This document shows positions 598-45,811 of a stretch of DNA of 64,000 nucleotides, in pieces; positions within the stretch are counted from its first letter, which is position 1; every line of letters starts with the position of its first letter. A program made the position numbers and the translations under genes. Source of the DNA: Siphonodentalium dalli (Eukaryota > Mollusca > Scaphopoda > Gadilida > Siphonodentaliidae); contig CP136061.1 of the NCBI GenBank assembly GCA_032622095.1, positions 175,793,692 to 175,857,691 of the forward strand, given 5' to 3'. Under the pieces are notes generated by a model. It saw only the letters and a program-made list of their open reading frames with translations, made no database searches and had not been told where the DNA came from.

Positions 598-792
598 TCT
601 CCTATATATTTTGAGACTTCCGTATATATATAAGTGTGTGTGTATATGTGTACTTCATAGAATCGAAAAAGGCTGGTCGGATCGAGCTAAATTAATATTA
701 AAAAATTCAAACAAATAATAAAAATATAAACAAAATATTTAAAAAAATGTCATGTTTCTGACCATTTAAAAAGTGGCGGGCTAACCTACTAG
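598..792 (+). mobile_element. Short Helitron-like unit, 195 bp
   Basis: It starts directly after the preceding CTAG with a TCTCCTATATATTTTGAGAC type 5' end and ends with GCTAACCTACTAG at 780-792. The left arm of the 3' hairpin is degraded (only GTGGCGGG remains). The interior is A-rich. Probably an internally deleted copy. Confidence 0.55.
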
Positions 793-1817
793 TCTATATA
801 TATATTTTGAGACTTCCGTATATATGTATGTGTGTATATATATATGTGGGTACTTCATAGAATCAAAAACGCGTGTACAGATTGAGCTCAAATTTCGTAT
901 ATAAGTAAAATCCCACGGGGATCGCCGACGTCGCATTTTGGACAAGCTCTGATAACTCATTCTCCACTCCCAATCAATAAAATCACTGCAAACACGGCGG
1001 GGGTTAATCGGGTTGATATTCGCTCGCAATCCAAGAGGAGTAACCCTACATTTTTTTATATCTGTATATTTTTATATCCATATTCACTTCAAACTGCTAA
1101 ACCCGTTGAGCCAAAACTTGCTAATACCTCGCAAAATATAGAATTTACATTTTCTGATGTATACATTTTTTGTTACGGCTGAAAATCTTAGTCTATTTCC
1201 GAAACATTCAGATTTTAAAGTATAAACTTACACACCACAATTCCTGTTAACTGACGCAGCTATATGGCTGCTGAAATTTAAGTGAATCCCAGGCACTGCG
1301 ATACGTCCCGAATCTGACGGGACTTCCACTGCCCCAAACCGTGAACGCCAACGACATTGTTGGCGAGAAAATAGCCCCCAAGCCGTAAATATCAACAACA
1401 ACGACATTGTTGGCGAGAAAATAATTAGTTAAATTTACTAAATACACGCAATCCTATTTTCCCTTTTCGGCAATGTGAGATTTTTCGGGGAGCCGTGATG
1501 CCAACAACAACGACCCGAATCCCTGAATGCCAACAACAACGACATCATCGGGTCAGTTTTTAAGTGAATCCCTATACGGCAATGTGAGATTTTTCGGGTA
1601 GCCCCGAGCCGTGATGCCAACAACAACGACCCGAAGCCCTGAATGCCAACAACAACGACATCATCGGGTCAGTTTTTTCTGCCCGATGTACCTTAAATCA
1701 TACCTCTTTTAGGGAGGGTACAATAATTTCTCTTAAAAAGGCACGATTAACTCATTGAAAAGCGAAAAAAATGTCATGTTTCGGACCGACGCCGCCAGTG
1801 GCGGGCTAACCTGCTAG
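793..1817 (+). mobile_element. Helitron-like unit, ~1.0 kb
   Basis: The 5' end TCTATATATATATTTTGAG directly follows CTAG (789-792) of the previous unit. The 3' end has the hairpin CCGCCAGTGGCGG, then GCTAACCTG and CTAG at 1814-1817. Inside are repeated CAACAACAACGAC(A/C) blocks (about 1350-1660) and the phrase GGGTCAGTTTTT near 1551 and 1665. No coding sequence is recognised. Confidence 0.65.
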
Positions 1818-2584
1818 TCTACTATATAATTTGAGACTTCCGTATATATATATATATATGTATGTGTGTATATATGTGGGTACTTCATAGAATCGAAAAC
1901 GCGTGTACAGATTGAGCTCAAATTTTGTATATAAGTGTAAAATCCCACGGACACCGTCTCGTTTTGGAGAAGCTCAGAGCACCTCTTCTCCCTTCCCAAT
2001 CATCAAAATCACCACGCCACTCGGGGGTTAAGGCATCAACGATCTTTATATTGACCATATTCGGAGGTGTTAAGGATTAACGCTCTTTATTGCATTGGAT
2101 GTGGTGAAACGACTGACCCCATGCGTCCGAAATACAGATGCGCGACGAAATGCAATTATCTCGATTAAAAAGGCAGCATTGATCTAAGCAGCGTTTTTTT
2201 ACAATTCAACGCAATGCTATCGCTCGAAATATTATGCAGAGAGATTTCACGACTGGATTAATTGACTGTCCGCTCTTTTCGGGGACTACAGGGAAGTTTA
2301 GGATGGGTACCATGAATTAACTCATTGAAAAACAAAGAATGCGTTGTCTGTCGTTCCTAGGAAGGGGGATTTCATCGGGTCAATTAGAATAAAAATTAAA
2401 TAAATAGGTCAATTAGAATAAAAATTAAATAAATATTAAAAAAAACATAAATTAAATTTAAAAAACATTAAATTAAATAAATATTAAAAAATTAAAAAAA
2501 TATATAAATAAAAAAAAAATAATTAAAAAAAAAATTTTTGTCATGTTTCTGACCAACCACGCCAGTGGCGGACTAACCTGCTAG
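1818..2584 (+). mobile_element. Helitron-like unit, ~0.77 kb
   Basis: Starts TCTACTATATAATTTGAGAC after CTAG and ends with a CGCCAGTGGCG hairpin near 2570 and CTAG at 2581-2584. The 3' third (2380-2540) is an A/T-only low-complexity stretch of AATTAAATAAAT type. Confidence 0.65.
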
Positions 2585-3032
2585 TCTATACTATATATTT
2601 TGAGACTTCCGTATATATATATATATATATGTGTGTACTTTATAGAATAGAAAACGACTGCACCCATCGAGCTCAAATTTCGTGGTCGCGTTTTGGAGAA
2701 GCTCACAGCACCTGTTCTCCAATCTCAGTCACAAAAAACGGCACTGCGGTGGTTAATCAAGTGATAATTTAATAAGCGTTTGTTTTTGACGCACCGAGCC
2801 CGTGCGACGCAAGCTTCGCGCATGCGCAGACGTGATCTCGGAAACGGGTGGAGCTATCGACTTAAATTTGCTATGTGAATGTATCTTGTCCCGGATACAA
2901 ATTTTATCGGGTCGCCGAGCCCGTGCGACGCAAGCTTCGCGCATGCGCAGACCAGATCTCGGAAACGGGTGGAGCTATCGACTTGAAATTTGGTTTTTGA
3001 ATAGCCCGGACAACGTCGGGCTCATCGGCTAG
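2585..3032 (+). mobile_element. Helitron-like unit with a different 3' hairpin, 448 bp
   Basis: The 5' end is TCTATACTATATATTTTGAG. The 3' end differs from its neighbours: the hairpin AGCCCG-GAC-AAC-GTC-GGGCT lies at 3003-3022, then CATCGG and CTAG at 3029-3032. Inside are two ~118-bp tandem copies containing CATGCGCAGAC and ATCTCGGAAACGGGTGGAGC (about 2797-2995). The same hairpin at 13192-13212 is not followed by CTAG. Confidence 0.6.
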
Positions 3033-3305
3033 TCTATCTTCTATATATTTTGAGAACTCCGTGTATTCGAGAGATAGCCCACACCCTCCGGATCTCAATG
3101 ATATGATCGTGAATGAGTATTGATATACCCCACTAAACTTTGACAAACACCAGTAATGGTGTGTAGATCATTTACATATATCTCCTATATATTTTGATAC
3201 AATCTATCTAATTTACATATCTCTCTTATATATTTATGTTTGTGTGTGTGTTGTACTTCATACAAATCTACGATTCTCGACCGATCGGGACGAAACTTGG
3301 TACGT

Positions 3306-4330
3306 CAGGGCTGGCGATCTAGAAAATCCAGGAGGGCTATTAATAGCCCTCCTAGATATGCCTAGGAGGGCGATAGCCCTCCTCAACTTTTAAAGTTATG
3401 ATTTATTTTATCTGAGTTACTACTGCCGTTAGTTTGTCTATTTTTGATGTTGTATAACAACTCCATCTAAATTAAAAAAAATTATGTGGAAACAAAGTGT
3501 CCACAGAGTTGTGAATGTCAAAATCCCCCACAGTAATTATGGTATGGTGAATATTTAACTATGTTTTATATGTTATTGAACTTATGATAATTGATATGAA
3601 CAAGAAACAAAATGTAAGAGTGTTTGTACTCAACAATTTGTCAGTCGGCATCCAACCCATGCAACGGAATTCCATTTCCGATCGCAGACTGCTGCTTGCA
3701 GCAGTCAAGTCGCTATCTAGGCTATAGATTTACTGGGTGTTTGCAATTGGGGACATAGAAAATAGTTTCTGAACTTTAATAATTGAATAACAGTGTAAAC
3801 TAGAATACGTGGATACATTTAGCTAATTATATTAAAATATTGTCAATCGAAGCGATAAAAGAGCTGCAAGCTAATACAATTTTCACTGATAGGAACCGGA
3901 AACGGAACGAAAGGTTGAACTCAATTGGGACAGTGACATTTGGTTCTCACTATCCACAAACATGTGTTCATTTTATCCAGTGAAATATATCGTAAGCTCA
4001 ATCTTATGAAGAGAAATAATTTATTTTGGTCATAAAATGTGTGAGAATCGATCAAAAGATCAGATTTACGAAACAGTTCGTTCCGGAATTTACTGATTCC
4101 GCTATAATTCCCATTTGACATTACCGTCAGGTCACGCATGCGCACAGTCCACACACTGTACAATATAATTACGATTTTGATGCAGTATTTTACTCATTAA
4201 ACACAATAAAATAACTAAATAATAAATGTCCTATCGTAGACGAGGCGGGCTATAAAAAGCCCGCCTTGGAAAATTCTAGGCGGGCTGTAGGCGGGCAGCC
4301 CGCCAGCCCGCCTTGAGATTTCCAGGCCTG
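3306..4330. mobile_element. Non-autonomous hAT-like element, ~1.03 kb
   Basis: It begins CAGGGCTGG and ends CCAGGCCTG, imperfect inverted termini of the CAGG type usual for hAT. GTACGT flanks both sides (3300-3305 and 4331-4336). The empty site GGTACGTGTGTGTAG exists at 10949 in a related Helitron copy. Subterminal palindromes lie at both ends: GGAGGGCTATTAATAGCCCTCC-like near 3331 and GGCGGGC motifs at 4244-4315. The visible duplication is 6 bp rather than the 8 bp usual for hAT, so an end may have lost 2 bp. I see no transposase; the 80-aa minus-strand frame at 3921-4163 has no motif. Confidence 0.65.
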
Positions 4331-4524
4331 GTACGTGTGTGTAGTTTGACCAGGCGGTGGTCGTTGTCGTATTGGCGAGCCCGTGCGATGCCCGTGCAGC
4401 GCATGCGCAGACGAGATCTCGGAAACGGGTGGAGCTATCGACTTGAAATTTGCTATGTGAATGTATCTTGCGCCGGGTACAAATTTTATCGGGTCGCCGA
4501 GCCCGTGCGACGCCCGTGCCGCGC

Positions 4525-6453
4525 ATGTGCAGACGAGATCTCGGAAACGCGTTGAGACATTCCGTATTTACGGAAGCTAGACATAACAGCGAGGAACTTC
4601 AACAGTGCAAACTGAAGCAACGATTCCACCGAGACTCTGGAAAGCCAAACCGCGAAAAATACGCTAATGATATTTACAATATAGTGCAGTTTATTCGGGG
4701 TGACAATTTCAGTGTTATACGCGATGTCGTTACGAAAACACTATCTGTGAACAGTAGCACAATACAACCTGGTAATGAGCCCAACAAAAGAGAGTCTTCG
4801 GAGCCGTGCAAATGTAATACGATCTGTATACAAGAGAAACTCACTGAAACTCTGACCGATTTGACTCTTACAAAAAAGAACCAATTGGAACGTGAACAAA
4901 AATGGTCAGACGACTTGTCATCAGTGAATAGCTCTATAAACACACTGACAAAAAACCAGTCAGACATAACTCTCTTGGAGACAATTGTTTGTGATGTCAA
5001 ACTGAAGTGCAATTCTAACTCAACGTCTATTGGTAGCACCATTGGCAATGTAGCTTCAGTCAGTCTCGGACTGGATCGTCTGCGAGATGATAAGTGCATG
5101 GGTTTCGACAATCTAAAGCATCGCGTTAAGATGTTAGAAAGCAACGTCGGCTCATCACAGGACGACTATCATACATTTATCAAATCTGTGAACTCCAAAG
5201 TGTCCGACATGTCGAAGTCTTTCGTCAAACACGAGTCGTTAGATCGAAGACTATCTTCTCTCACAAGCAAATGCTCATCGACGGTTGGAACTATTAAGCA
5301 GCATGTTTACGGTGTAGAGAGACAGTTGTCTACAATGTTTGAGCTTTTGGCCCAAGATACTGTTGTGAAGTACAATACACTGGGAGCAGTGGTACAGTCT
5401 TGCATGCAAACTGATCACACTCAACCAATCGATTTGCTGTGGAAAGCTACCGACATGTCACATCATAATTTGTCAATAGGAGATCCTCAGGCAAACAGCA
5501 GTACAAACTCTGGAACACAAAACCAACCTAGGACACCGGGTGCTCTTGCCACAAATTCCAATGATATAATTATTGACAGTGTAGTAAATAACAGTGATGT
5601 TAGCCCTAAAATCCTGCCCGAACCGTCGGTCGATCCACTCGACCACTTATCTCCTATAAATTGGTCAAAGGATACCAGCTCCCTAATGAGGGAAATTCTT
5701 GTCAAGACCAAAAAATCTACTGACTATACTACCACGAATCAAGCTGACACTCAGTCAAGATCTCCAACATTCAGTAATATGCTGGCGAATACCGCAGGTG
5801 TTGGCAATTCGATTGCCTCTTCGAAAGCGCAATCTGACAATGTCGCATCGGGACAACATTCCTCGCATTCTAATTCAAACTATAACGAAAGTTTAAATAG
5901 CATTCCTGTCATTTCAACAACCGAGCAGAATGAGGAAAGACAACGAACGTCCAACACAGACCGCACGCGCGACGACATGAGAATGGCCCACAACTCGTCA
6001 GTTCGTAATAAATATGACAACAACTCGAAAATGCAAGTATTCAATTCATACCACCAACAAACTTCAGCATCAGAAACCGATTCGACGCACATATTCCATG
6101 ATGTCCCACCACGCGATTACCACGACGAAGAATATCGTCACGACGATACATGCGGCTTTAAAGGCGTGTTACCTAAAAGAGGTCGGAGAACCCGTAAAAT
6201 CTTTATAGGAAGGATTGCTACAACTGCCAAAGAACGCGATCTTTGGACATTCTTCGAAAATAGAGGCATATTGCCCACATTCGTTCGACTCATGGCCAGT
6301 ACAAGGAATGGCACACAATCAGCCCGAGTTAATTTATACGCAGATGATATAAAATTGCTGTACCAAGAAGATTTCTGGCCCAAAGGCATCATTGCCAGAC
6401 CATGGCGTTCTGATCCACCTCAGCGTGACTATCATGGAGATACAGCCAAATAA
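4525..6453 (+). CDS. LINE ORF1 protein (nucleic-acid-binding chaperone type)
   Basis: An open frame of about 640 residues. The first ATG (4525) lies in flanking Helitron sequence, and the LINE part begins near 4551, so the true start is unclear and the LINE 5' end may be truncated. Residues about 30-300 are polar and heptad-like, consistent with a coiled coil. The middle is Ser/Thr/Asn-rich and low in complexity. The C-terminal ~85 residues contain RKIFIGRI, DLWTFFENRGI, FVRLMAS and FWPKGIIARPW, an RRM-like fold seen in many invertebrate LINE ORF1 proteins. In this family it would coat the element RNA and assist target-primed reverse transcription. No stop or frameshift interrupts it. It overlaps ORF2 by 20 nt, so ORF2 may be translated by reinitiation. 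Confidence 0.7.
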   Translation: MCRRDLGNALRHSVFTEARHNSEELQQCKLKQRFHRDSGKPNREKYANDIYNIVQFIRGDNFSVIRDVVTKTLSVNSSTIQPGNEPNKRESSEPCKCNTICIQEKLTETLTDLTLTKKNQLEREQKWSDDLSSVNSSINTLTKNQSDITLLETIVCDVKLKCNSNSTSIGSTIGNVASVSLGLDRLRDDKCMGFDNLKHRVKMLESNVGSSQDDYHTFIKSVNSKVSDMSKSFVKHESLDRRLSSLTSKCSSTVGTIKQHVYGVERQLSTMFELLAQDTVVKYNTLGAVVQSCMQTDHTQPIDLLWKATDMSHHNLSIGDPQANSSTNSGTQNQPRTPGALATNSNDIIIDSVVNNSDVSPKILPEPSVDPLDHLSPINWSKDTSSLMREILVKTKKSTDYTTTNQADTQSRSPTFSNMLANTAGVGNSIASSKAQSDNVASGQHSSHSNSNYNESLNSIPVISTTEQNEERQRTSNTDRTRDDMRMAHNSSVRNKYDNNSKMQVFNSYHQQTSASETDSTHIFHDVPPRDYHDEEYRHDDTCGFKGVLPKRGRRTRKIFIGRIATTAKERDLWTFFENRGILPTFVRLMASTRNGTQSARVNLYADDIKLLYQEDFWPKGIIARPWRSDPPQRDYHGDTAK

Positions 6454-9400
6454 GCTTAATATATTGACGTGGAATGCCACAGGCTTCATGTCATCCCAGC
6501 TATACATTTGTGATATTCTGAAAACATTAAAATACAGCTTCGTCGGAATATCTGAGCACTGGCTTAGTGAACAAAATGTTATTTCACTTGAAACACTACA
6601 TCATTCCTATTCCGCCGTGGTAAAGCCGGGGCGAACAATCAAAACTAAAACTAACGCCACGTTCACAAGAGACGGAGTAGCCATTATGATACGAAAAGAC
6701 TTGCTCAACAGATGTACAGTGATCGATCTACCACACGAATGGTGCGCAGGCATCAACTTCAACGTTTCCCCCAGCATGTCACTGGCATTCATTCAAGTAT
6801 ATATGCCAAACACAAACCATGGAGATGACGAATTTCAGAAGTGTTTAGCATCTCTGTTGGACATTTATTCCATGCTATCACAAGAAGGTTCTGTTATTTT
6901 AATGGGCGATTTCAACGTACACCTAGGAGATGCCAGAGGTGAAAATCTTCCCACGCGTCACTCGTTCCGTTCTATGGTTATGAATACATTCTCCAAAGAC
7001 ACATGCATGTGGTCTACTGTTTGTTCGCCTTCGTGCAAGGGACCACGATTCACATTCTTTCCTTTCGCTGCAGTGGCCAGTCCAACCACTATTGATCATA
7101 TCTTCATACCAGAATGTATGGTACATTTGGTATCGTCATGTCGCGTCTTGGATGATGTACCATCGAATGTGTCAAACCATCTGCCTGTGACATGTGCCAT
7201 TACCGTGGACATGTATGACCACCAAACCACAGCCACCCGCAAACACATCCGCACTGTGTATAAATGGAAAGGTGGTGACACTTAGGGATACCGTATAATC
7301 CTGAATACGGCGTGCTCCGAGATGTTAAAGCGACATATCGTTGACAATTCTGACGTTGATAAATTCTACGCGGATGTTGTATCCTCACTCCATGAGGCTG
7401 CCCTGTCAGCTATTGGTGAACGAAAGTTCCAGACACACATGAAGCCCTACTGGAATTCTGACCTATCTTCGCTACAACAAAATGTGAAAGCAAACCGTTC
7501 AAAGTGGTTATTGTCTGGGAAAAAACATTCCACGGAATCAAGTGATTATCTGAACTACAAGGACTCAAAACGTCGATTTCAGCGGGCTCTAAGGATAGCC
7601 GTGTGCAATCACGAGCAAAAATTCCTGTTAGATGTTGAAACTGCAGCAAACGAAAATCCCACCTGTTTCTGGAAAATGACGAAGTCTAAAACTAACTCCC
7701 ATGCAGTTACGAGTGGTATGGATTTCGGAAATGGTATGTGTAAAGAGCCTAGTGCGATCTTATCAGGCTGGAAATGCTATTTTGAGAACTTATACACTCC
7801 CACAGTACACGCTGATCCCCCCGAGTTCAACAAATTCATTACCAACAGCCTCTCGTCGGAATTCGATCCCTCCTGCATAAATTATGACTCGACAATATTT
7901 TGCAATGAAATAATGTCAGAAGATGTCAATGCTCAAATAAAAAACATGAAGAAAAACAAATCATCGGGTCCGGATGGTATTGCTAACGAGCACCTGATAT
8001 TTTCTTCTAAACAAATGGTGTCAGTGATTTGTAAACTCTTCAATGGTATTCTTTCACGGGAATGGATTCCCACGGTTATGAAATCTGGTATCATTATTCC
8101 TCTGCACAAAGGCGACCCGAAGCCGCGGACTAAGCCAGACAGTTATCGTGCAATCACACTTCTCTCCTCATTGTATAAACTATTCGAGTCGGTCATCTTA
8201 CACAGATTTCTGAAAAGTCCATCCCTTAATAAATTTCCACATGCTCTGCAATTCGGATTCCAGAAGGGAGTCAGCTGCACTATGACGTCGTTCATTGTGC
8301 AGGAAGCTATACACTATGCACGCGACAACCACTCCAAAGCTTATGTTTGCTACCTTGACTCTGCAAAGGCATTTGACTGCGTTTGGCACGAGGGCCTCCT
8401 GTACAAACTGAACAACCTCGGATTCAATGGGAAAATACTTCGGATAATCCGCAACATGTACTCAAATTGCGCTAGCTGTGTGCTCCACAATGGTGATTTG
8501 TCAGAGTCATTTGAAATTCGCCAAGGAACAAGACAAGGGGCCGTAACATCGCCTTTTTTCTACTTGACATTCATTGACGATCTCTTGTCTACTCTGGAAG
8601 TTTCAGATCAAGGTGCATCTATTGGCAATATCAACTGTACCTCACCAACAACTGCAGATGATATTACTATAGTTTCCCTCACAAAAGCTGGTTTGGACAA
8701 CTTGATGAAAATCTGCTTCAACTACAGCAAGAAATGGCGCTTCTGTTTTTCAAAATCTAAGAGTTCCGTTGTCGTATACAACGAAACGAAACAACAACAC
8801 ACAAACCAACAAAGATCGTGGATTCTTGGGAATGACACGATCGATGAAAGCACCAACTGTCGCCATCTGGGAATTTCTCAAGGAAAATTCGGCAACACTG
8901 TTAACCGTGCTACAAATATATCTGAAGTGTTGAGAAAAACATACTTCTCTATCGCTGGTAGGAAATCCTTAAGTATGTGCACCCCTCTCACAATGAATAA
9001 TCTCCTACACACAGTTGTGCTTCCAAAGGCTCTTTATGGCGCTGAACTCCTATATTCAACAGATGACAACGCTCTCTGCACAATTGAAAAGGGTCTACGT
9101 ACATGTATAAAGCACATACAGAATCTTCCAACACGGGCGAGCACAAACCTCTCACTCAGTCTCCTGGGTGTTTTACCGATGAGTCGCCAACTACATTTGA
9201 GAAAACTTCTCTTCCTCGGCGAACTTATCCTCTTGCCTGCGACTCGAGACTTTCCTTTACGAATTTTCATGAAAAACCTCTATATGCACAATTTATTCAA
9301 TGTGAATACCACCGGTTATGTAAAAGACATCATCTAGAAGTGTACAATCTGTCTTCTTATCTTCAAGAATTCTTATCTTCTGGATCCTTCCCAAAGAAGA

Positions 9401-9921
9401 TCATTTGGAAGCAACTCGTTAAGTCGACCATAAGAGCTCACTATTGTGATGCATGGACTTCAGCAGTGGGTGCCAATGGTCGCTCTTCTAATCTTCTCCT
9501 CATTCATAACCAGCCTCTCGCAGTCTGGAGTGTGTGGCGTCTTCTTGCTGCCCATCCTAACAGGAGTTTGGAACTGAAAAATCTTGCTAGACTTCTAAAT
9601 AGATTGTTGTTCGAAAACAATGCCCGATGCATGCTGTGTGGCCACACATATAACAATGAAATTGGACATATTACTGACTCGTGCAGATCTGCCACCATGT
9701 ACAGACTCTGATATAATTACTGGTGTATGCTTATCGATAGCTTCGACATCCAACTATTTAGTTACCTGGATGCTCTCCCAAACGACCATTTAAATGCGCT
9801 GTTAATACTTGGCAGTACCCAACTTGGTTGTCATATCCCGACTGAGTCATGGGAGCAGCTCATCATCGCATCTGCTGCATTTCTGTATGTTGGTTGTCAA
9901 CTAATTCGCCCCGGAAGTTAA
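6434..9921 (+). pseudogene. LINE ORF2: AP-like endonuclease + reverse transcriptase, broken
   Basis: Starts at ATG 6434 inside the end of ORF1. The endonuclease (6434 to ~7210) shows ILTWNATGF, FVGISEHWL, VYMPN, LMGDFNVHLGD and SNHLPVT, the APE fold that nicks the target. An in-frame TAG at 7283-7285 interrupts it. The reverse transcriptase follows (~7900-8900) with KSSGPDGIANEH, YRAITLLSS, YLDSAKAFDCVWH (motif A), RQGTRQGAVTSPFF and TADDITIV. The catalytic box reads TADD instead of the usual Y/FADD. Near 9333 a one-base frameshift moves the frame from ...VKDII to EVYNL.... A C-terminal CX2C...HX4C knuckle (CMLCGH to DSC, 9628-9690) follows, then an in-frame TGA at 9709-9711, and the frame closes at 9919-9921. 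Both stops could be single substitutions (TGA from CGA is typical CpG decay). Confidence 0.8.
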
Positions 9922-10191
9922 AAGATGACATTCACATGACATTTGATGCAATATGCCTCTCATGTGGACAATTTTCAACTATGATCTGGCCTCCTTGCCA
10001 CCCGCATCTACAATGTTTTCTCATATACTCGTTTTTACCTTGCTCTTCGTACAATGTACACATCTTTCCAATTTATGTATACAATGTCCTTCCTTGTAAA
10101 TAGATGCTGGTGTATAGTCCACTTACAATGGTCTCGTTACCACATATTTTCTGTAACTGATATGTATATATGCTCTTCATACTTGGAGGTC

Positions 10192-10197
10192 AATAAA
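10192..10197 (+). other. Polyadenylation signal of the LINE
   Basis: AATAAA lies ~270 bp after the ORF2 end and just before the junction with Helitron sequence, as expected for a LINE 3' end. Confidence 0.5.
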
Positions 10198-10678
10198 CAA
10201 TAATAATACTACACATGACAGCCGATGGACAATTGGTCTCTATATATGTACCAAAATTACGCCGCGTTGGTGACTGGGAAATTCCAGGGAATGCCGATTG
10301 AGCTCAAACTTGCTACCTACGGGAAGTGTCATATATATGTGTGTGTCCTTTATAGACTCGAACCGATTGAGCTCAAACTTGCTAAATATGGGAAGTGTCA
10401 TGGACGGGTTCATTGAAAAACAAAATTAAAAAGGCACAATTAACTCCTTGAAAAACAAAAACAAATCGGGTAAAATTGAAAAACAAAAAATTCAATTAAA
10501 AAATTAAAAAGGCACAATTAACTCATTGAAAAACAACAAATTAAATTAAAATTGTCATGTTTCTGACTATTGCCGAAATTTGCTGCAAATGCAGCACAAG
10601 TGTCTCGGAACCTGTTGCAATTGCTTTTTCGAACAAAGCCATGGGACGAATGCCGCCAGCGGCGGGCTAACCTGCTAG

Positions 10679-11368
10679 TCTTCTCTTCTATATATTTTGA
10701 GAACTCCTTGTATTCGAGAGATAGCCCACACCCTCCGGACCTCAATGATATGATCGTGAATGAGTATTGATATACCCCACTAAACTTTGACAAACCCCAG
10801 TAATGGTGTGTAGATCATTTACATATCTCTCCTATATATTTTGATACAATCTATCTAATTTACATATCTCTCTTATATATTTATGTTTTGTGTGTGTGTT
10901 GTACTTCATACAAATCTATGATTCTCTACCGATCGAGACGAAACTTGGTACGTGTGTGTAGTTTGACCAGGCGGTGGTCGTTGTCGTATTGGCGAGCCCG
11001 TGCGACGCCCGTGCAGCGCATGCGCAGACGAGATCTCGGAAACAGGTGGAGCTATCGACTTGAAATTTGCTATGTGAATGTATCTTGCGCCGGGTACAAA
11101 TTTTATCGGGTCGCCGAGCCCGTGCGACGCCCGTGCAGCGCATGCGCAGACGAGATCTCGGAAACGGTGGAGCTATCGACTTGAAATTTGGCATGTGAAT
11201 GTATCTTGCGCCGGGTACAAATTTTCATGCGCAGACCAGATCTCGGAAACTGGTGGAGCTACCGGGTACAAATTTTTCTTATTGAAACGCGTGGAGCTAA
11301 AAATTAAAAAAATATATATAAAAATGTCATGTTTCGGACAAGCCGCCGGTGGCAGGCTAACCTGCTAG
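10679..11368 (+). mobile_element. Helitron-like unit, 690 bp
   Basis: Starts TCTTCTCTTCTATATATTTT after CTAG and ends CCGCCGGTGGCAGG, CTAACCTG, CTAG at 11365-11368. Its 5' third closely matches 3033-3305, so these two belong to one subfamily. It has at least two ~118-bp internal copies with GCATGCGCAGACGAGATC (10998-11240). Confidence 0.65.
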
Positions 11369-12415
11369 TCTATACTATATATTTTGAGACTTCGTATATA
11401 TGTGTGTGTGTGTGTGTGTACTTCATAGAATCCAAAACGCGTGTACAGATTGAGATCAAATTTCGTATGTAAGTGTAAAATCCCACCGACACCGCCGTAG
11501 TCGTGTTTTCGAGAAGCTCTGATCACCCTTTATCCACTCCCAAATCACAGCAAAGGCACGGCGGGGGTTAATCAAGTGATTATTTAATGAGCGTTTGTTT
11601 TTGACGCATCTCTATAAAGAGCGTCTGTTTCCCATTCAACGTTATTCGCATCTGCAGAGTTATACGGGAACGCAAACGTTATCGCTCAAAATTTATTTCC
11701 TGCGAGCACGGATGGCGCGCTTTGTCTTCGGTATATACCGAAATCATCCCAGATAATCACGAATATAGCATCAGATTTCTCCCCAGATATACCGTTATAA
11801 AGCTACTGGAATCTGCCAATCTACGGCAAATTCCAGGGAATGCCGATTGAGCTCAAACTTGCTACCTACGGGAAGTGTCATATATATGAGTGTGTCCTTT
11901 ATAGACTCTAACCGATTGAGCTCAAACTTGCTAAATAAGAAATTAGCCCCCAAGCCATAAATATCAACAACAACAATATTACTAAATACACGTTTTCGGC
12001 AATGTGAGAGTTTTCGGGGAGCCGTGATTCCAACAACAACGACCCGAAGACAGATTTCCCGACGGGAAGCGTTTGTTTTAAATTCAATGCAATGTTATCG
12101 TAGAGAGATTTCACGAAACAAAGAATGCGTTGTCTGTCGTTCCTAGGAAGGGGGGATTTCTACGGGTAAATTTTTCCGCCAGAAACAAAAAAATTAATTA
12201 AAACAATTTACAATTTAATTAAAACAATTTAAAATTAAAAAAAATTAACAATAAAAAAACAATTCAGAAACAAAATATATTAAATTTAAAAAACATTAAA
12301 TTCATATTCAAAAACAAAAAACAAAAATAAATAAAAACAAAATAATTACAAAAATGTCATGTTTCTGAAACAAAGCCATGGGACGAATGCCGCCAGTGGC
12401 GGGCTAACCTGCTAG
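11369..12415 (+). mobile_element. Helitron-like unit, ~1.05 kb
   Basis: Starts TCTATACTATATATTTTGAG and ends CCGCCAGTGGCGG, GCTAACCT, GCTAG at 12412-12415. It contains a (TG)n run near 11402-11419 and an A-rich 3' stretch (12185-12350). No coding sequence is recognised. Confidence 0.65.
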
Positions 12416-13376
12416 TACTATATATTTTGAGACTTCCGTATATATATGTGTGTGTACTTTATAGAATCGAAAACGGCTGGCTCGATTGAGTTCAAACTTC
12501 CCATCTAAGGGTAAAAACCCACGAACACCGTAGTTGTCGCGTTTTGGAGAAGCTCTGAGCACCCTTTCTCCTCTCCTAAAATTAGCGCAAAGGCACGGCG
12601 GGGGTTAATCAAGTGATAATTTAATGAGCGTTTGTTTTTGACGCATCGCTATAAAGAGCGTCTGTTTACCATTCAACGTTATTAGCATCTGCAGAGAGAT
12701 ATACGGGAACAATACTTTTGAGTGGTTAGCTATGCGGGGAGATTTATTGGATGCCATAGTACTCTTACAACATCATTGTTATAGTATGTATGACACTTAT
12801 GTCAGGGCTTAGGGGGGGGGGGTAGTTAGTGTGGATATAGGCATAATGCTTCTCAGAAATCCCGGTTACAAACCAACACTCACAATTTTGTCTTTTGCAT
12901 CAGATACCAACGCCTCGACCGATCGGGACGAAACTTGGTACGTGAGTGTAGTTTGACCAGGTGGTCGTCGTTGTCGTATTGGCGAGCCCGTGCGACGCCC
13001 GTGCAGCGCATGCGCAGACGAGATCTCGGAAACGGGTGGAGCTATCGACTTGAAATTTGGTATGTGAATGTATCTTGCCCCGGATACGAATGTTATCGGG
13101 TCGCCGAGCCCGTGCGACGCCAGCTTCGCGCATGCGCAGACCAGATCTCAGAAATGGGTGGAGCTATCGACTTGAAATTTGGTTTTTGAATAGCCCGGAC
13201 AACGTCGGGCTCAACAATTTTTCATCGGGTCAGTTCTTTCCGCCCGATGTACCTTAAATCTTTTAGGGACGGGTACCATAATTTCTCTTGATTAAAAAGG
13301 CACAATTAACTCGTTGAAAAGCCAAAAAAATGTCATGTTTCTGACCAACGCCGCCAGTGGCGCGCTAACCTGCTAG
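12416..13376 (+). mobile_element. Helitron-like unit, ~0.96 kb
   Basis: Starts TACTATATATTTTGAGACTT directly after CTAG (one base pair variant of the usual TC start) and ends CCGCCAGTGGCG, CGCTAACCTG, CTAG at 13373-13376. Two ~118-bp internal copies lie at 12975-13190. A second hairpin, AGCCCGGAC-AAC-GTCGGGCT at 13192-13212, is not followed by CTAG, so it may be a fossil end from an earlier recombination. Confidence 0.6.
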
Positions 13377-14520
13377 TCTACTATATAATTTGAGACTTCC
13401 GTAAATATATGTGTATATGTGTCCTTTATAGACTCCAAAACGGCTGCACCTATTGGGCTCAAACTTCCCATCTAACGGTAAAAACCCACGGGAATGGTCG
13501 TCGCGGCGTTTTGGAGAAGCTCTGAACACTCATTCTCCACTCCCAATCACCAAAATCACCGTCCTCGACACTACGGGGTTAATCGCGTTGATAGTTAAAG
13601 AGCGTTCCTATCCGCAGTGTCGTTGATAAAGAGCGTATGCGCGTAGTGTGATTCTTATGTCTGCACAAACGCGTGAGCTCCTCAATCTAGACATGAACGT
13701 GTTGTGTGATTCTTATGTCTGCCTTCGTACTTAGAGCTCCCTATGAACTGGGGATTTTTTTCATCGGTCAGTTTTTCTGCCCGTGTAAATCATACCTCTT
13801 TTAGGGACGGGTACCTCCAAACCCCAAGTTTATTAAGTCAAAATGGTTGGTTGGTATAAATTGGACGTTGCTAAACGATCACCTATGTACAAAATTACGG
13901 ACGCAAAACCTCTTTTAGGGACGTTACCACCATTTCTCGCAGTTTTTCTGCCCGCGTAAATCATACCTCTTTTAGGGACAGGTACCTCCAAACCCCAAGT
14001 TTATTAAGTCAAAACGGTTGGTTGGTATAAATTGGATGTTGCTAAACGATCACCTACGTACGAAATTACGGACGCAAAACCTCTTTTAGGGACGGGTACC
14101 ACCATTTCTCTTGATTAAATAGGCAGAATTAACTCATTGAAAAACAAAAAAATGCGTGTTGTGTGATTCTTATGTCTGTCGTTCCTAGGAACGGGGGAGA
14201 TTTTCATCGGGTCAGTGTTTCCGCCCGATAGGGATGGGTACCATCATTTCTCTTCATTACAAATTTAAATTTCCCTATATTTTCTATGTGTATATATATA
14301 TTTGTACTTTATAGAATCGAAAACGGCTGCATCGATCGAAACCAAACTTCCCATCTAAGGGTAAAAACCCACGGGAATGGTCGTCGCGGCAAGCTCCGAG
14401 CACCCGTTCTTCACTCCCAGTCACAAAAAAACGGCACTGTGGTGTTAATCGCGTTGATAGTTAAAGAGCGTTCATATCCGCAGTGTTGTTGATAAAGAGC
14501 GTATGCGTGTAATGTGATTC
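13377..14520 (+). mobile_element. Last Helitron-like unit of the array, no 3' end
   Basis: Starts TCTACTATATAATTTGAGAC. It contains a tandem duplication of ~150 bp (13770-13910 and 13955-14100) sharing TACCTCCAAACCCCAAG and GGTTGGTATAAATTGGA. A second degenerate 5'-like motif lies near 14275-14335. The Helitron phrase stops near 14520, where a coding-like fragment shared with 43.9-44.05 kb begins. No hairpin plus CTAG end was found. Confidence 0.5.
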
Positions 14521-15778
14521 TTGCGTCGAAATTCCGACAAACGAAACATGATCCTCGTCTGATGACGATTCCACTCTATACGTTGGCTGGGTCATAGTAC
14601 TTCTAAATTCATCATCTGAGTCCATGTTGGTTGTGTGTAGATCTTACAATACCAGGTAGCGCGCGGTAATTAGTTAACACATTTAATGTGAACTAATATC
14701 GCTGGTGATGAGTAAGACAATAGTCATATATGCATTATATTACTAGGATCAACTCATGAGTTGTTGGTTAATTGAAAAACTTAATCAGTGTGTGATATAT
14801 CGCTCACGGACACACCGCAATCGACCTGCTTTCAAACAGGGGCGGTTGTTCTCTTGAACTCCCAAAACATATCAGAAGAAACCAGGACATAGATAGACAC
14901 AAATTATATGGGATATCCATATTCATCCTGTATTCACAATATATTCCTATATTCACGACCATTTTATAATTCAAACACGGTATATCCCAATCACCACTCA
15001 TGAGTAAGACCATTACTCGATTATGCTCAACCTGCTTGGCGACCATATCTAAAAAAAACACACAGTTCCAATGGAAAAAGTTCAAAAGAGAGCAACAAAA
15101 CTAGTACCGGGACTAAAAGATATGGGATACGAGGATAGGCTAAGAAAAATGGAACTACCAACCCTGATGTACAGAAGCCACCGAGGTGATATGATTGAAT
15201 GTTTCAAAATATTCAACTGCAACGATCCGGAAGTATCAAACATTCTTACAAGAAACACCGAATCTGGGACCAGAGGTCACAACAATAAACTGTACAAAGA
15301 AAGATCTAACTATGACACACATTCAGCCAAAGAGTGGTCACTACTTGGAACAATCCACCAGACGAAGTGGTGTATGCTGAAGATATAAACCAATTCAAAA
15401 ACAGACTAGATCATCATTGGAAAATCAGGATGTTAAGTATTACTATAAAGCAGAATTGGTGACTGAATTTCAACCATACAACCCAAATATGTCTAGAGAT
15501 GCAACCGAATATGGTGAAATAACACAATGTGAGGTGGATACAGTGGCCACCAGCGTCCACTACAGACGTAAGGTAACGTAAGATAAAGAAATACCTGGAC
15601 TGTCAACGCGGCCCAGTGAATTCTAGTTCAAAGCGATAATTTGGATTTGTGACAATGCCTTGGTAAGCGAAGTCGATGCAGCGAGGACAAACACTATCAG
15701 GCCAAGCAAATTAAATGTTTGTTGTAGCTGGAAGGTGTCCATGTTGTTAACACATATGCACTGCATGGTGTCGCCCTT
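14520..15778 (-). repeat. Inverted copy of the 43.56-44.05 kb segment, split by a LINE tail
   Basis: Read on the minus strand, 15775-15595 matches 43570-43770, ~15000-14980 matches the GAGTGGTGATTGGGATAT phrase near 43780, and ~14690-14522 matches 43855-44050. It includes a short conserved frame starting at ATG ~14624 (minus): MDSDDEFRSTMTQPTYR..., ending ...VGISTQ where Helitron sequence starts. The other copy reads MESDDEFRSTMTQSTY.... The middle (about 15005-15590) is a LINE fragment absent from the other copy. Confidence 0.6.
15005..15590 (+). pseudogene. 5'-truncated LINE: C-terminal tail of a reverse transcriptase
   Basis: Frame 15071-15325 reads EKVQKRATKLVPGLKDM, YEDRLRKMELPTL and RGDMIECFKIFN, the tail that follows the RT domain in jockey/CR1 elements. 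A frameshift near 15325 moves to another frame reading NPPDEVVYAEDINQFKNRLD. It ends in a GTAAGGTAACGTAAGATAAAG tail of the simple-repeat kind these LINEs carry. It interrupts the segment shared with 43.6-44.1 kb, so it is the younger insertion. Confidence 0.75.
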
Positions 15779-15867: not shown

Positions 15868-17838
15868 GAAATGGACCAACTATCGAGCCATGCAGAAAGA
15901 ATGTAAAAGGGAAATGAGGAAGGCTGAGTGGGATTACATCAACGCTAAGATTAAAGAAGGTTTAGAACAAAAGTCGACGAAACCATTCTGGAGATACATC
16001 AAGAGCAGAAAACAAGATAACATCGGAGTGTCGCCATTGAAATCACAAGGCAAGCTGATTGACGACCCAAAAGGCAAAGCAGAAATCCTGGTAAAGCAGT
16101 TCCAGTCAGTATTCACCAAGAACCAACCACCACTTCCTGATCTTCAACCCAAATGCGAAAACATCGGCAAACTGACAGTGACAGTGAATGGCGTGGAAGC
16201 TCTGCTGAAGAGATTAAACTCATCCAAAGCTTCGGGCCCAGACGGTATCCCAAACTCTATCCTAAAGAAGTATTCAAAACAACTGGCACCTGCCTTCAGG
16301 CTCATATTCCAACTCTCATTAGACACAGGCACATTGCCAAGGGACTGGCGCAGCGCCAACATAGCCTTAATCTACAAAAAAGGAGACCGACATCAAGCGG
16401 AAAACTATCGTCCTGTGTCCCTAACATCAGTACCGTGCAAGCTACTAGAACATCTCATATGCCGCCATATCCATGAACATCTGGAGAAGCACAACATACT
16501 AACAAAGCTAAACCGTGGCTTTCGAAGGGGATATTCCTGCGAAACACAACTAGCAGTGACAACACAAGACATCTTACAATCATTTGACAACAAGAAGCAG
16601 ATCCTTGCAACCTTGCAATCCTTGCAATCAAGGCCATCCTTGATTTCTCCAAAGCTTTCGACACTGTGCCACATGACAGCCTATTGACCAAACTAAATCA
16701 CTACGGTATCACAGGCCCGGTCAACAGATGGCTAGCATCCTTTCTGAAAGAAAGAAAGATGAGAGTTGCACTCGAGGGATACTACTCAGAAGAAGTTGAC
16801 GTGCTATCAGGAGTACCACAGGGAACAGTATTGGGACCGCTGCTTTTTCTCTGTCACATAAATGACCTACCGGACACAGTAACATCACAAGTCCACCTAT
16901 TCGCAGATGACTGCCCCCTGTACCGCCAGATAAACACCTACAAAGACCACGAAATATTGCAACAAGATCTACGCAAACTGGAATCATGGGCCACCAAATG
17001 GGGGATGCGCTTTAATCCAACTAAGTGCTACATTATGAGCCTAAAGCAGAAGACACAAAGATTTTACCAACTAGCAGGGCAGATACTCCAAGAAGTCACA
17101 AACAACCCGTACCTTGGCGTCCAATTCTCCAATGACATGCAGTGGCAGCACCACATCGAGTCCACCACGAAGAAGGCAAACTCCACCCTCGGCTTCCTCC
17201 GGCGAAATCTCAGGTACTGCCAAATGGATCTTAGAAAAACGGCATACATAGCATTAGTCCGCCCTCAGCTAGAGTATGCAGCAACAATCTGGGATCCACA
17301 CTATGAAAAGGACAAGACAAAACTGGAGAAGGTGCAACGCAAAGCAGCAAGATTTATAAAACAGGACTACCGAACGAGAGAGAAAGGCTGTGTAACATCA
17401 ATGCTCAGTGAACTTCAACTACCATCCCTAGAAGCAAGAAGAAAGGAACAGAGACTGACACTATTTTACAAAGTGGTTAAGGGATCAGCCCTGGGCATCA
17501 ACTCCGAACACTACCTAAGAAACTACCGCCCAAAGAGGAAAAAGAAACCCACAAAATTCAAGGACTTTGTTAGTGACAACATCGTGGAGAAATTAACCAC
17601 AAATAACGAAAGTGCCTACGAACCAATTCATACAAACACAGACCAATACGGATATTCCTTCTTTCCGAGGACTGTACTTGACTGGAACAAACTGGACAAC
17701 AGCACAGTCAATGCCGCCGACCTAGAAACATTCAAGGCGGCTCTAGGAGAACAAAACTAGCGCTCCTCACACCGTCCTGTAAAAGCCAGCTTTGGTCACT
17801 AGGACGTAACAACTACAGATACAGATACAGATATAGAC
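15868..17838 (+). mobile_element. 5'-truncated jockey/CR1-type LINE, ~2 kb
   Basis: It holds a reverse transcriptase frame (15890-17760) followed by a short 3' UTR and an ACAGAT hexamer tail (17812-17835). It is flanked on both sides by the same satellite. The endonuclease and ORF1 are missing, as expected for incomplete target-primed reverse transcription. Confidence 0.75.
15890..17760 (+). pseudogene. LINE reverse transcriptase with one frameshift
   Basis: The first frame (to ~16610) shows WRYIKSRK, SSKASGPDGIPNSIL, AENYRPVSLTSVPCKLLE and NRGFRRGYSCETQL. A repeated CCTTGCAA stretch at 16607-16628 shifts the frame. The second frame continues AILDFSKAFDTVPHDSLL (motif A), SGVPQGTVLGPLLFL, LFADDCPLY (FADD catalytic box), YLGVQFSNDMQW, then the tail LEYAATIWDP, LEKVQRKAARFI. 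It ends in TAG at 17758-17760. The catalytic Asp residues are all present, so apart from the frameshift and lost 5' half the domain looks well preserved. Strongly like the jockey-type RTs abundant in invertebrate genomes. Confidence 0.85.
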
Positions 17839-26631: not shown

Positions 26632-28065
26632 CTCGCTGTTTCATGACTATATAAAGCAAAACGAGCGATAACACCATAAGATTATTTTTTTGTCATGTAG
26701 GTGCTGGGTGGGGGGGGGGGGGGGGGGGGGGGAGATATCCTGACCTGGACATTTCCCCCCCCCAAACCCTGACTCAAACAACTTGTTCTCAGAAGAAGTT
26801 AATTTCTCGCTGTTTCATGACTATATAAAGCAAAACAAGCGATAAAACCATAAGATTATTTTTTTGTCATGTAGGTGCTGGGTGGGGGGGGGGGGGGGGA
26901 GATATCCTGACCTGGACATCTTCCCCCCCCCACCCAAACCCTGACTCAAACAACTTGTTCTCAGAAGAAGTTAATTTCTCGCTGTTTCATGAATATATAA
27001 AGCAAAACAAGCAATAAATCCATACAATGATTTATTTGTCATGTAGGTGCTGGGTGGGGGGGGGGATATCCTGACCTGGACATCTCCCCCCGCCCCCACC
27101 CCAAACCCACAACTTTCTCTTGGAGAAGCTAATTTCTCGCTGTTTCATTACTATATAAAGCAAAATAAGCGATAAAACCATAAGATTATTTTTTTGTCAT
27201 GTAGGTGCTGGGTGGGGGGAAGATATCCTGACCTGGACATCTCCCCCCCCCCCCCCACCCCAAACCCTGACTCAAAAAAGTTGTTCTCAGAAGAAGTTAA
27301 TTTCTCCCTGTTTCATGACTATAAAATGCAAAACGAGCGATAAAACCATAAGATTATTTTTTTGTCATGTAGGTGCTGGGTGGGGGGGGGGGGGGGAAAG
27401 ATATCCTGACCTGGACATCTTCCCCCCCCCCAAACCCTGACTCAAAAAACTTTTTCTCAGAAGAAGTTAATTTCTCGCCGTTTCATGAATATATAAAGCA
27501 AAACAAGCAATAAATCCATACAATGATTTATTTGTCATGTAGGTGCTGGGTGGGGGGGGGGATATCCTGACCTGGACATCTCCCCCCCGCCCCCACCCCA
27601 AACCCTGACTCAAACAACTTTCTCTTGGAGAAGCTAATTTCTCGCTGTTTCATTACTATATAAAGCAAAATAAGCGATAAAACCATAAGATTATTTTTTT
27701 TGTCATGTAGGTGCTGGGTGGGGGGGGAAGATATCCTGACCTGGACATCTCTCCCCCCCCCCCCCCCCCCCACCCCAAACCCTGACTCAAAAAAGTTGTT
27801 CTCAGAAGAAGTTAATTTCTCCCTGTTTCATGACTATATAAAGCAAAACGAGCGATAAAACCATAAGATTATTTTTTTGTCATGTAGGTGCTGGGTGGGG
27901 GGAAGATATCCTGACCTGGACATCTCTCCCCCCCCCCCCCACCCCAAACCCTGACTCAAAAAAGTTGTTCTCAGAAGAAGTTAATTTCTCCCTGTTTCAT
28001 GACTATATAAAGCAAAACGAGCGATAAAACCATAAGATTATTTTTTTGTCATGTAGGTGCTGGGT

Positions 28066-28097
<32 letters not shown>

Positions 28098-28425
28098 GAT
28101 ATCCTGACCTGGACATCTTCCCCCCCAAACCCTGACTCAAAAAACTTTTTCTCAGAAGAAGTTAATTTCTCGCTGTTTCATGAATATATAAAGCAAAACA
28201 AGCAATAAATCCATACAATGATTTATTTGTCATGTAGGTGCTGGGTGGGGGGGGGGGATATCCTAACCTGGACATCTCCCCCCCCCCACCCAAAACAACT
28301 TTCTCTTGGAGAAGCTAATTTCTCGCTGTTTCATTACTATATAAAGCAAAATAAGCGATAAAACCATAAGATGATTTTTTTGTCATGTAGGTGCTGGGTG
28401 GGGGGGGGGGGGGGGTGGAATATCC
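26632..28425 (+). repeat. Satellite of eleven ~170-bp units with long G and C runs
   Basis: Each unit carries TTAATTTCTCGCTGTTTCAT, ACTATATAAAGCAAAA, TTTTTTTGTCATGTAGGTG, CTGGGTGG then a G-run of about 5 to 35, GATATCCTGACCTGGACATC, and a C-run of about 6 to 20. At least two unit types alternate (for example CCATAAGATTATTT and CCATACAATGATTTAT). The facing G and C runs could fold as hairpins or G-quadruplexes. No coding sequence. Confidence 0.9.
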
Positions 28426-30034: not shown

Positions 30035-33000
30035 GGGGTCATCTCAAAACTACTATCGGGAAATCAGCCTATTTCCCGATAGATCCCGATAGCATATATA
30101 TACAGTTATCGGGAAATTATCTGGAAATGACGCAACGTTTTTCGGGAAATTATCGGAATATTTACATAGTCTATCGGGATTCTGTCGGAGTTTACTTTCA
30201 TTTCGGAGTATCATATTCCGAAAACAACACATGTTGTTTGGAAAGTTTCTGTATCGGGATTACTCCGGACTTTTATCGGGATTTTATGTTTTATAGGCCT
30301 ATCTTTAATATTGATTTAATAGTTTCCTAATATGAGAAATCGTTAGTATAAAGTTTTACAGTATCAGGGGACATGTGTCGTAGAACTATTACATGTTATA
30401 CTGTGGTGATCAGTGGGTGCTACATACAATATCGGTATTTTACCCGGACAATACACCCCACCCGCCAGGAAATCTTCAAAATCAATTCGCGGGGAGCATA
30501 CCCAAATATGTATACAGTTGTATACTATCTTCATAGCTTCAAGTTGTGTTTGTAATATGTTTAAATACCTCCGATTTTAAATATGGAGGAAATAAAGATA
30601 TAACTATGTTATGGCAACTGTAAATTAAGATTTGTATCTATTTGCGAATCGCCGACGACACAATTAATGCATGCACAATCGAGTGCAGTCTTGCATGAGA
30701 TGTTATGTTCTATTTTTAGCCCGATTCCAGGAATTGGGGTTATCAATATTTACGTTTCTGGGAACAACACATGTGGCATTGCAGAGTATGTCTTGAAGAA
30801 GACAAAACATTTTCAGATTTCACACAGTGAACGAATTTATAAAACAATTTCAAACATGGGACAACTCCAGCTTAAAAAATATCGGGCCTGTACGTATATT
30901 CCGAATATACATAGCCTATGCGAAATTTATTGCAATGTGCGACAGCATTTGATGTGCTTTTTAACACAATTGCATTTTTGTTTAACAGCACATGCATGGA
31001 TCGCAAACAACAAAACTCGCCAGTAGAAAAAAAAATATAACTCCACAGTGGAGTTAAACTTTAAGCATGAAATTTTGCTGTTATGCCTACATTCTGCATG
31101 CAGTTTGGGGGGGGGGGTGCTATCTAGATCGATCATGCACGCCATGAATATCTGCTCAGTTCTCTACCCTTTAGTCAAGAGTATAGAGATTTGTAACATG
31201 ACATATGGGGGTGGGGGGGGGGGGGGGGTGTCCAGCAGTAATATTCCATAGTTTTTTCATGAATCGTAATATCGTAAATAAAGAGCGTCTATACAGACCT
31301 GTGAAAATATGAATGGAAAATTCCATGCAAATCTGCAGTGCAAATGTTATAAATACGCGAAGCAATCATAACATTTAACTGGCAATTAAATGTGTGCATG
31401 GGCTGCTTTTCTGTAATTACTACTAATTATAAATAGGCTGCATTGATTATTTAGATATGTTGAACATAGCCTAATTATGTTGACAGTGTCGAATTTCACG
31501 ATTGCATCATCAAGGTCAAGGTAACACTATGCGATTTATTTACATAGTAGGCCCCTATATTCATCATCTTTTTTCAAAAAGATGTCTTTGCTAACTTTTA
31601 TTTAGTTTGATATCTCAAATACGCGTACTTTTATCGATATTAATAGCCAGTCCATCGTTTTAAAATGACTTGCCAATAAATATTATGTCATATATGACGG
31701 GCATGATCGACGCATCGAAATGTGCAGGGATCTATCGATCATAACTGGGTCAAGTACGACACATTAGGTGCATATGAGGTTCTCGGAGGGGTAAACAATT
31801 TTGTCACCACTGATTATTTTGTTCTTGTGTGATTACTAATGTTCACATTCACCGCGCATTATCACTTAGATAGTCTCCAGGAAATTCGCCATATTATGAT
31901 GTGAAAAATTAAAGAATTGACTGCGTAAAACTTGTGTTATGTTTTATTTGTGTCAGTATAGGCGGCGAGGCGAATTAGTAACACGTGCAAGACACGCCAT
32001 TTTCAAAAATAATGATTTAGCACATTTCGTTATCTGCATTTTAAGAATTACCTTGTTAATTTTACACTGAGTATGATTGATAAAACAAAATACACGAGAG
32101 AAATTATATTTATTGGCCGTAGTTTTGAGAACAAATTTATTCTTGAATGATGAATCGAAATCCTGGCAGCGTTTACTAGACACTGATGGCGCCAAAAAAT
32201 ATGCGCAAATCAGGTGGGGAAAATCAGCTGAACAATATAGTTCTCAAACATTGTTTGAAGAAAGATACCTGCGATTGAAAATCAAATATTTGAAGCCAAT
32301 GTTTAGTAATTATCGTAATCCTATGGCATTTATTTCACATGTTTGGTAATTTATTCGATTTTTATCAAATATATATTTGAATTTTTTTTTATCACGTTCA
32401 CTTTGGAACAGTCTATTGCTAGTGTTGAAGGGATACTACCTTTATGAAACCATTCCTTTTTAGCTCAACTTACTTTTGTAAGTTTGAGCTATTGCCATGG
32501 CTTGGCGTCCGTCGTCTGTGTGTCCGTGTGTCCGTGTGTCCGTGTGTCCGTGTGTCCGTCAACAATTTCCTTTGGCGCGGGCTACAGGTCGTACCTTTGG
32601 TCTGATCTTTATGAAATTTTGCATGAATGTTGACATTGACATGTAGATGGGAACGAGTCATTTTGGGGTCATTCGGCCAAAAAACATGGCCGCTGGTGGC
32701 CATCTTGGATTTCAAAATTCAATCCATTGGCGCGGGCTACAGGTCGTACTGTTCTTTTGATCATCATGAAATTTGTCATGGATGTTAATATTGACATGTA
32801 GATGGGAACGAGTCATTTTAGGGTCGTTCGGCCAAAAAACATGGCCGTCAGCAGCCATCTTGGATTTTACTCTTTGCATGACTAAATCATTTGGCGCAGG
32901 CTACAGGTCGTAGTTTTGATTGGAACTTCATGAAATTTGTCATGGATGTTAACAATGACATGTAGATGGGAACGAGTGATTTTGGGGTTGTTCGGCCAAA

Positions 33001-45810: not shown

Positions 45811-45811
45811 A

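Follow-up and report, generated by a model that had tools for sequence, protein, structure and literature searches.

Tandem Helitrons are already known from bat, silkworm, maize and plant centromeres, and what is distinctive about the array described here is that its units are unlike one another and partly mixed. In the passages of the literature cited, tandem copies are reported from bat and silkworm (PMC4067079), from plants and bats (PMC5876387) and from Drosophila, rice and maize (PMC5148889), and CTAG/TC junctions (the slash marking the boundary between two copies) have so far been read as rolling-circle products, in bat, or as consecutive insertions, in a maize pair (PMC2267711). The Helibat1/Helraiser element of Myotis lucifugus resembles our units in its TC start, CTAG end, exact CTAG/TC junctions and short palindrome, which in Helraiser lies 11 nt upstream of the end (PMC4778049); a difference is that no RepHel protein was found here among the open reading frames tested by Pfam. 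The bat tandem junctions (Pritham and Feschotte 2007, as cited in PMC2267711) are described as repeats of one element, whereas the present units differ and some are mixed. Different Helitrons joined CTAG/TC, as here, form the maize r1 pair (Du et al. 2008, PMC2267711), for which the cited passages consider insertion at the host A plus the second element's first T, or at GT, and leave the order open; that pair carries captured genes, whereas the present array has at least 10 units and yielded no known gene. Plant centromeric Helitron arrays are likewise tandem (Xiong et al. 2016, via PMC5148889 and PMC7492417), but their copies are described as truncated, the inner ones often at the 3′ end (PMC7492417), whereas in our array the inner copies retain CTAG and, in most cases, the hairpin. 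Maize Helitrons with multiple 3′ termini contain an inner damaged terminus, comparable to an internal hairpin without CTAG in our unit U8; in the text cited these elements are traced to nested Helitrons, whereas here the feature belongs to one unit of an array (PMC3288121). Helentrons and HINEs, as described in PMC4067079, are likewise non-autonomous and have internal tandem repeats, but the present array has a CTAG end and subterminal inverted repeats were not found in eight of its units. The internal evidence of this array bears on how tandem Helitron arrays form.

The window, that is the whole stretch of 64,000 nucleotides of Siphonodentalium dalli DNA that was analysed, contains nine junctions at which a CTAG end meets a head, with CTAG ending at 597, 792, 1817, 2584, 3032, 10678, 11368, 12415 and 13376. 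The junction reads CTAG/TC in eight of them and CTAG/TACTATATAT in the ninth (12415). All units lie in one orientation, on the forward strand, over about 14.5 kb, and the array continues past the left window edge; its first unit begins outside the window and its last two are without 3′ ends. The 18-base tail GGCGGGCTAACCTGCTAG was matched 8 times in the window with at most 3 mismatches (0.01 expected), the 23-base head core TATATATTTTGAGACTTCC, which follows a variable start, was matched 6 times (0.00 expected), and zero bases separate tail from head at all eight matched tails. Head and tail profile searches of 14.6-64 kb, on both strands, returned nothing better than E 0.68. The original prediction had described five junctions in the left part of the array, each composed of hairpin, spacer, CTAG and TCTATATAT. 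All five exist, with TCT from the next base, and the head-to-tail abutment holds; the hairpin is present at only four of the five tails (4-6 bp stem), being gone at 792, and the literal CTAG-TCTATATAT consensus occurs at one of the five, because the first head bases vary. That single occurrence, CTAGTCTATATAT at 789-801, is the sole match in the window with at most one mismatch (0.13 expected by chance), and the heads at the other four left junctions read TCTCCTATATAT, TCTACTATATAA, TCTATACTATATAT and TCTATCTTCTATATAT. The predicted "left block" proved too narrow, as the junctions at 10678, 11368, 12415 and 13376 are part of the same array, in which later inserts interrupt one unit; there are two such inserts in U5, and the array therefore looked like separate blocks on first inspection.

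Two types of head and two types of tail can be distinguished. Seven of the nine heads (5A) follow, with some deviation in individual units, the rough pattern TCT-n-TATATATTTTGAGACTTCCGTATATAT, an AT/GT-rich stretch, then TACTTYATAGAATCGAAAACG, and the remaining heads (5B, at 3033 and 10679) diverge past TATATATTTTGAG and have more 5A-like head sequence inside, at 3182 and 10829. Eight of the nine tails (3A) follow CCGCC-AGT-GGCGG-GCTAACCTG-CTAG, with an exact match in two, and the 3B tail (3032) reads AGCCCG-8-CGGGCT-CATCGG-CTAG. Seven of the nine tails contain a stem of 4 bp or more; the stem is lost at 792 and weak at 11368. Under stricter scoring (at least 4 G-C pairs) a hairpin is present at five of the nine tails, compared to 2.0% of 3000 random stretches. 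The folding energy of the eight 3A tails was no better than that of shuffled sequences (z from -1.34 to +0.65, and from -0.47 to +0.65 in the four left-block 3A tails), while the 3B tail reached -2.01; for the 3A tails the case for a hairpin is its position and conservation. The 3A tails were further grouped by eye into alpha and beta subtypes, and the tail of U7 scores on both tail profiles (65.4 and 52.2 bits). An argument from the occurrence of each head type (A, B) with each tail subtype (alpha, beta) was dropped, the B-beta combination being represented by U5 only and A-beta by U7 only.

From left to right, U0 (1-597) is the 3′ portion of a unit whose start lies outside the window; it ends in a beta-type 3A tail, with CTAG at 594-597. 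U1 (598-792; 195 bp) has a 5A head and a 3A tail whose left hairpin arm is lost, U2 (793-1817; 1025 bp) a 5A head and an alpha-type 3A tail with the CCGCC-AGT-GGCGG hairpin, and U3 (1818-2584; 767 bp) a 5A head and an alpha-type 3A tail. U4 (2585-3032; 448 bp) combines a 5A head with the distinct 3B tail and contains two internal repeat copies of about 121 bp. The next four bases, TCTA at 3033-3036, are proposed to be the left remnant of the original U8 head, and their final A would be the A of an A^T target (the caret marks the insertion point). U5 (3037-10678, or from 3033 if TCTA is included) has a 5B head and a beta-type 3A tail, and 3033-10678 amounts to about 900 bp with the two later inserts set aside. 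U6 (10679-11368; 690 bp) has a 5B head and an alpha-type 3A tail; U7 (11369-12415; 1047 bp) has a 5A head and a 3A tail with beta and alpha features. U8 (12416-13376; 961 bp) has a 5A head without its first bases, beginning TACTATATAT, keeps a 3B hairpin in its interior at about 13190-13213, and terminates in an alpha-type 3A tail. U9 (13377-14266) has a 5A head and has lost its 3′ end, and U10 (14267-14522), a 5A-type head region without first bases and without a tail, is the last array similarity. The repeat of 121 bp (CGAGCCCGTGCGACGC...) is present in at least two full or partial copies at 2794-3002, 4376-4556, 10993-11225 and 12983-13191, internal to U4, U5, U6 and U8, and is thus common to units with unlike heads and tails.

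The termini of these units match, in their sequence, non-autonomous canonical Helitrons rather than Helentrons. The canonical 5′ TC is present at eight of the nine junctions, and the exception (12416) may have been split by an insertion; the canonical 3′ CTRR is represented by CTAG at all nine. For the A/T insertion site we can point to a single, inferred internal one, TCTA^TACT, the outer ends of the array lying beyond the window. No subterminal inverted repeats of 12-15 bp, as in Helentrons and HINEs, were detected, the longest exact inverted match between head and tail being 5-10 bp in eight units; that of U6 (10 bp, A/T only) is alone in beating nearly all shuffles, 1 in 100 of which had a match as long. 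Pfam recognized no RepHel or transposase in the 10 of 31 open reading frames of at least 110 aa and the 10 of 26 listed array open reading frames (60-126 aa) that were searched. Four exact-pattern scans of viral contigs for relatives gave no match, and Rfam and tRNA scans returned nothing. One exact-pattern prokaryotic scan yielded two bacterial contigs without Helitron features, which were rejected as chance matches; by eye, both fall in one related stretch of the two bacteria.

Evidence that the junctions are element ends comes from the exchange of partners between heads and tails. The two 5B heads (3033, 10679) match at 96 of 101 aligned positions, but only 26 of 43 positions match between the tails that precede them (3B at 3032, 3A at 10678). 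Conversely, 39 of 40 positions match between the tails ending at 10678 and 12415, against 57 of 117 between the heads that follow them. Since head and tail types swap partners exactly at CTAG/TC, the junction marks a true boundary rather than a motif inside a satellite. Within the window, the partner change supports the predicted Helitron boundaries.

The interiors of the units also differ. There are 92 matches of at least 40 columns between units, 76 of them at 68-90% identity and 16 above 90%, and only two, both between U5 and U6, exceed 95% identity over at least 150 columns. Some pairs are alike over part of their length: U6 and U8, whose heads differ, share 278 columns at 91.7% identity, and U4 and U8 are 93.5% identical over 231 columns as far as the 3B hairpin, after which their tails differ. 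Judged by such alignments, some units are mixtures of others, with terminator bypass, nested insertion and ordinary recombination as possible routes. A profile search also detected eroded head-like sequence at 343-399 (U0), 10332-10392 (U5) and 11881-11939 (U7), with E from 1.2e-9 to 3.3e-8, which suggests that these three units may themselves be fusions.

U5 requires separate treatment, as it carries both later inserts. The first, at 3306-4328 on the forward strand, is about 1 kb long, starts with CAGGGCTGG and is flanked by an 8-bp target duplication, TGGTACGT; U6 provides the empty site (around 10936-10965), and an 8-mer in common was seen in 1 of 1000 shuffled flank pairs. We take this insert to be hAT-like. 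The second, at approximately 4555-10262 on the forward strand, is a non-LTR retrotransposon in which Pfam recognizes endonuclease and reverse transcriptase domains, in several frames. Its candidate 7-bp duplication, CGCGTTG, is what chance would give, since 503 of 1000 shuffled flank pairs have a 7-mer in common, and the borders of the element are therefore approximate. The first half of U5 is 97.5% identical to U6 and its later parts are closest to U7 and U0, with the switch in similarity located at the retrotransposon (position 491 of 900). The mixed make-up of U5 may thus come from retrotransposon insertion or recombination, and not from Helitron transposition, and because of the position of the switch we did not count U5 as evidence for exchange of Helitron ends. 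Nor does U5 appear to be a direct product of U6 and U7, since about 240 bp of its 3′ half fit U7 poorly and are partly closer to U0.

A further trace of the history of the array is found at the start of U8, which is the only one of the nine heads without an initial TC. U5 is the only head that has, within its first 15 bases, bases ending in A before a TC (TCTA/TCTTCTATATAT). When TCTA is placed in front of the U8 start, the resulting TCTATACTATATATTTTGAGACTTCC matches U4 exactly over 36 bases and U7 over 25; no other join gave 24 of 24 positions. After the join, U5-U6-U7 has an A to its left and a T to its right, the canonical Helitron target. With modest confidence, we propose that Helitrons may have inserted four bases inside the U8 head, either serially or as the block U5-U6-U7. 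The trace consists of four bases, of which TCT begins eight of the nine heads, and the join extends a match that is otherwise present four bases out of register. The composition-based chance of the informative ATC is 0.019 per junction; multiplied, this becomes about 0.06 for the three closest junctions upstream and 0.13 for all seven. The TCTA join improved two further heads as well, taking the best match of the one following 792 from 10 to 18 of 24 and that of the one following 10678 from 9 to 12; the former cannot be the inner host because it lies upstream. Alternatively, the U5 start could be a changed form of the U6 start, differing by about two small changes.

On balance, these observations lead us to think that the array, made up of at least 10 non-autonomous Helitrons of canonical type from a few related subfamilies, probably grew mainly by serial 5′ insertion. 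A new copy would insert directly 5′ of a resident one, at an A^T composed of the preceding base and the resident's first T. Each insertion would leave CTAG/TC behind and remake A^T in front, so that the site would stay usable. One target would be internal to a head, four bases from its start (TCTA^TACTATATAT of U8), with U5, U6 and U7 placed between that A and T. The original prediction had named repeated insertion at the same 3′ end as one possible origin; repeated insertion is the explanation that we favour, with the resident 5′ end (A^TC) as the preferred place. Insertion at the 5′ end is preferred over the 3′ end because the latter would use G^T and not A^T. Since both yield the same junction, as already pointed out for the maize pair (PMC2267711), this preference is one that we infer: CTAG/TC alone fits A^TC insertion, G^T insertion or a circle alike. 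The models published for CTAG/TC junctions coincide with those considered here (PMC2267711). At least 10 unlike units, partner changes and one apparently split head together constitute internal evidence for consecutive A^T insertion, and a renewed A^T would explain in a simple way how such arrays could go on growing with all units in one orientation.

The order of growth could not be read from divergence, as Mantel tests were weak, null or reversed. Comparison of tails with the heads that follow them gave r of 0.19-0.34 (p = 0.03-0.18, one test at p = 0.034), one of four shifted controls reached p = 0.047, head against tail within units gave r of -0.28 to -0.01, and one of 12 spacing tests reached p = 0.022. 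The stray low p values in the shifted control, the tail/head and the spacing tests were therefore treated as noise.

A broader version of serial 5′ insertion, which we offer as a tentative possibility, is that the resident 5′ end acts as a self-renewing landing pad (A^TC being remade each time), which would gather unlike Helitrons in the same orientation and mix their heads, interiors and tails into new ones. In its boldest form, U5-U6-U7 would have moved as a ready-made trimer into the U8 head, and, if so, an array can itself transpose.

An older array could instead have been amplified locally, with unequal exchange or gene conversion copying blocks of neighbours that diverged later, an explanation that we consider unlikely. 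It is consistent with U5 and U6, which are neighbours and 97.5% identical across 483 columns, with the tails at 1817 and 13376, which agree at 37 of 40 positions and precede heads with the same first 24 bases, and with the switch in U5 from U6-like to U7/U0-like sequence at the retrotransposon, which recombination between two copies of a retrotransposon could produce. With U5 and U6 removed, head distance also correlated with spacing (r = 0.48, p = 0.02; seven heads, 150 bp), but p was 0.12 with 60 bp and 0.07 with 100 bp, and all nine heads gave a null result (p = 0.21-0.57). Against amplification are also the tail distances, whose relation to spacing was reversed (r = -0.24 to -0.32, all nine), and the pairwise table, in which no repeated unit order was seen by eye.

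A rolling-circle concatemer, the other origin proposed in the original prediction, would have placed several joined copies at once in one event, through a skipped 3′ terminator or a multi-unit circle. Such products have precedents in the sections cited, as Helraiser forms circles with exact CTAG/TC junctions, one recovered circle being active (PMC4778049), and tandem arrays in bat and silkworm have been ascribed to bypassed termination (PMC4067079). The apparent position of U5-U7 between one A and one T would also result from a single multi-unit insertion. However, the units are not copies of one monomer, and their interiors differ. Since they are unlike in both length and content, a fresh concatemer of a single circle is improbable, the simple form of the proposal is disfavoured, and we regard rolling-circle concatenation in general as quite unlikely.

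Finally, that the array is a satellite or composite repeat, with CTAG and TATATATTTTGAG as internal motifs instead of ends, is highly improbable: a head does follow every 3A tail in the window and no solo copy occurs there, but the partners change exactly at CTAG/TC, head-like sequence stands without a preceding tail at 3182, 10829 and 14267, the internal 3B hairpin of U8 has neither CTAG nor head (its 3A end follows about 160 bp further on), and the units, which share mainly their ends, have aperiodic lengths (195, 1025, 767, 448, about 900, 690, 1047 and 961 bp) where near-constant monomers would be expected.

Other repeats and coding sequences were seen outside the array. A second reverse-transcriptase fragment lies at 15869-17757 in two overlapping frames, beside an open reading frame at 15053-15388 that by eye resembles a reverse-transcriptase tail. 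On the reverse strand, a long open frame at 56702-58339 has DDE_Tnp_1_7 and zf-Tnp_2 domains and is presumably a piggyBac-type transposase, and three sizeable open frames at 45712-48584, with no Pfam match at E 0.001, possibly represent one split gene or mobile element. Two tandem arrays were also identified, one at 26755-28407 with 10 copies of a 169-bp unit and the other at 32568-35198 with 16 copies of a 164-bp unit.
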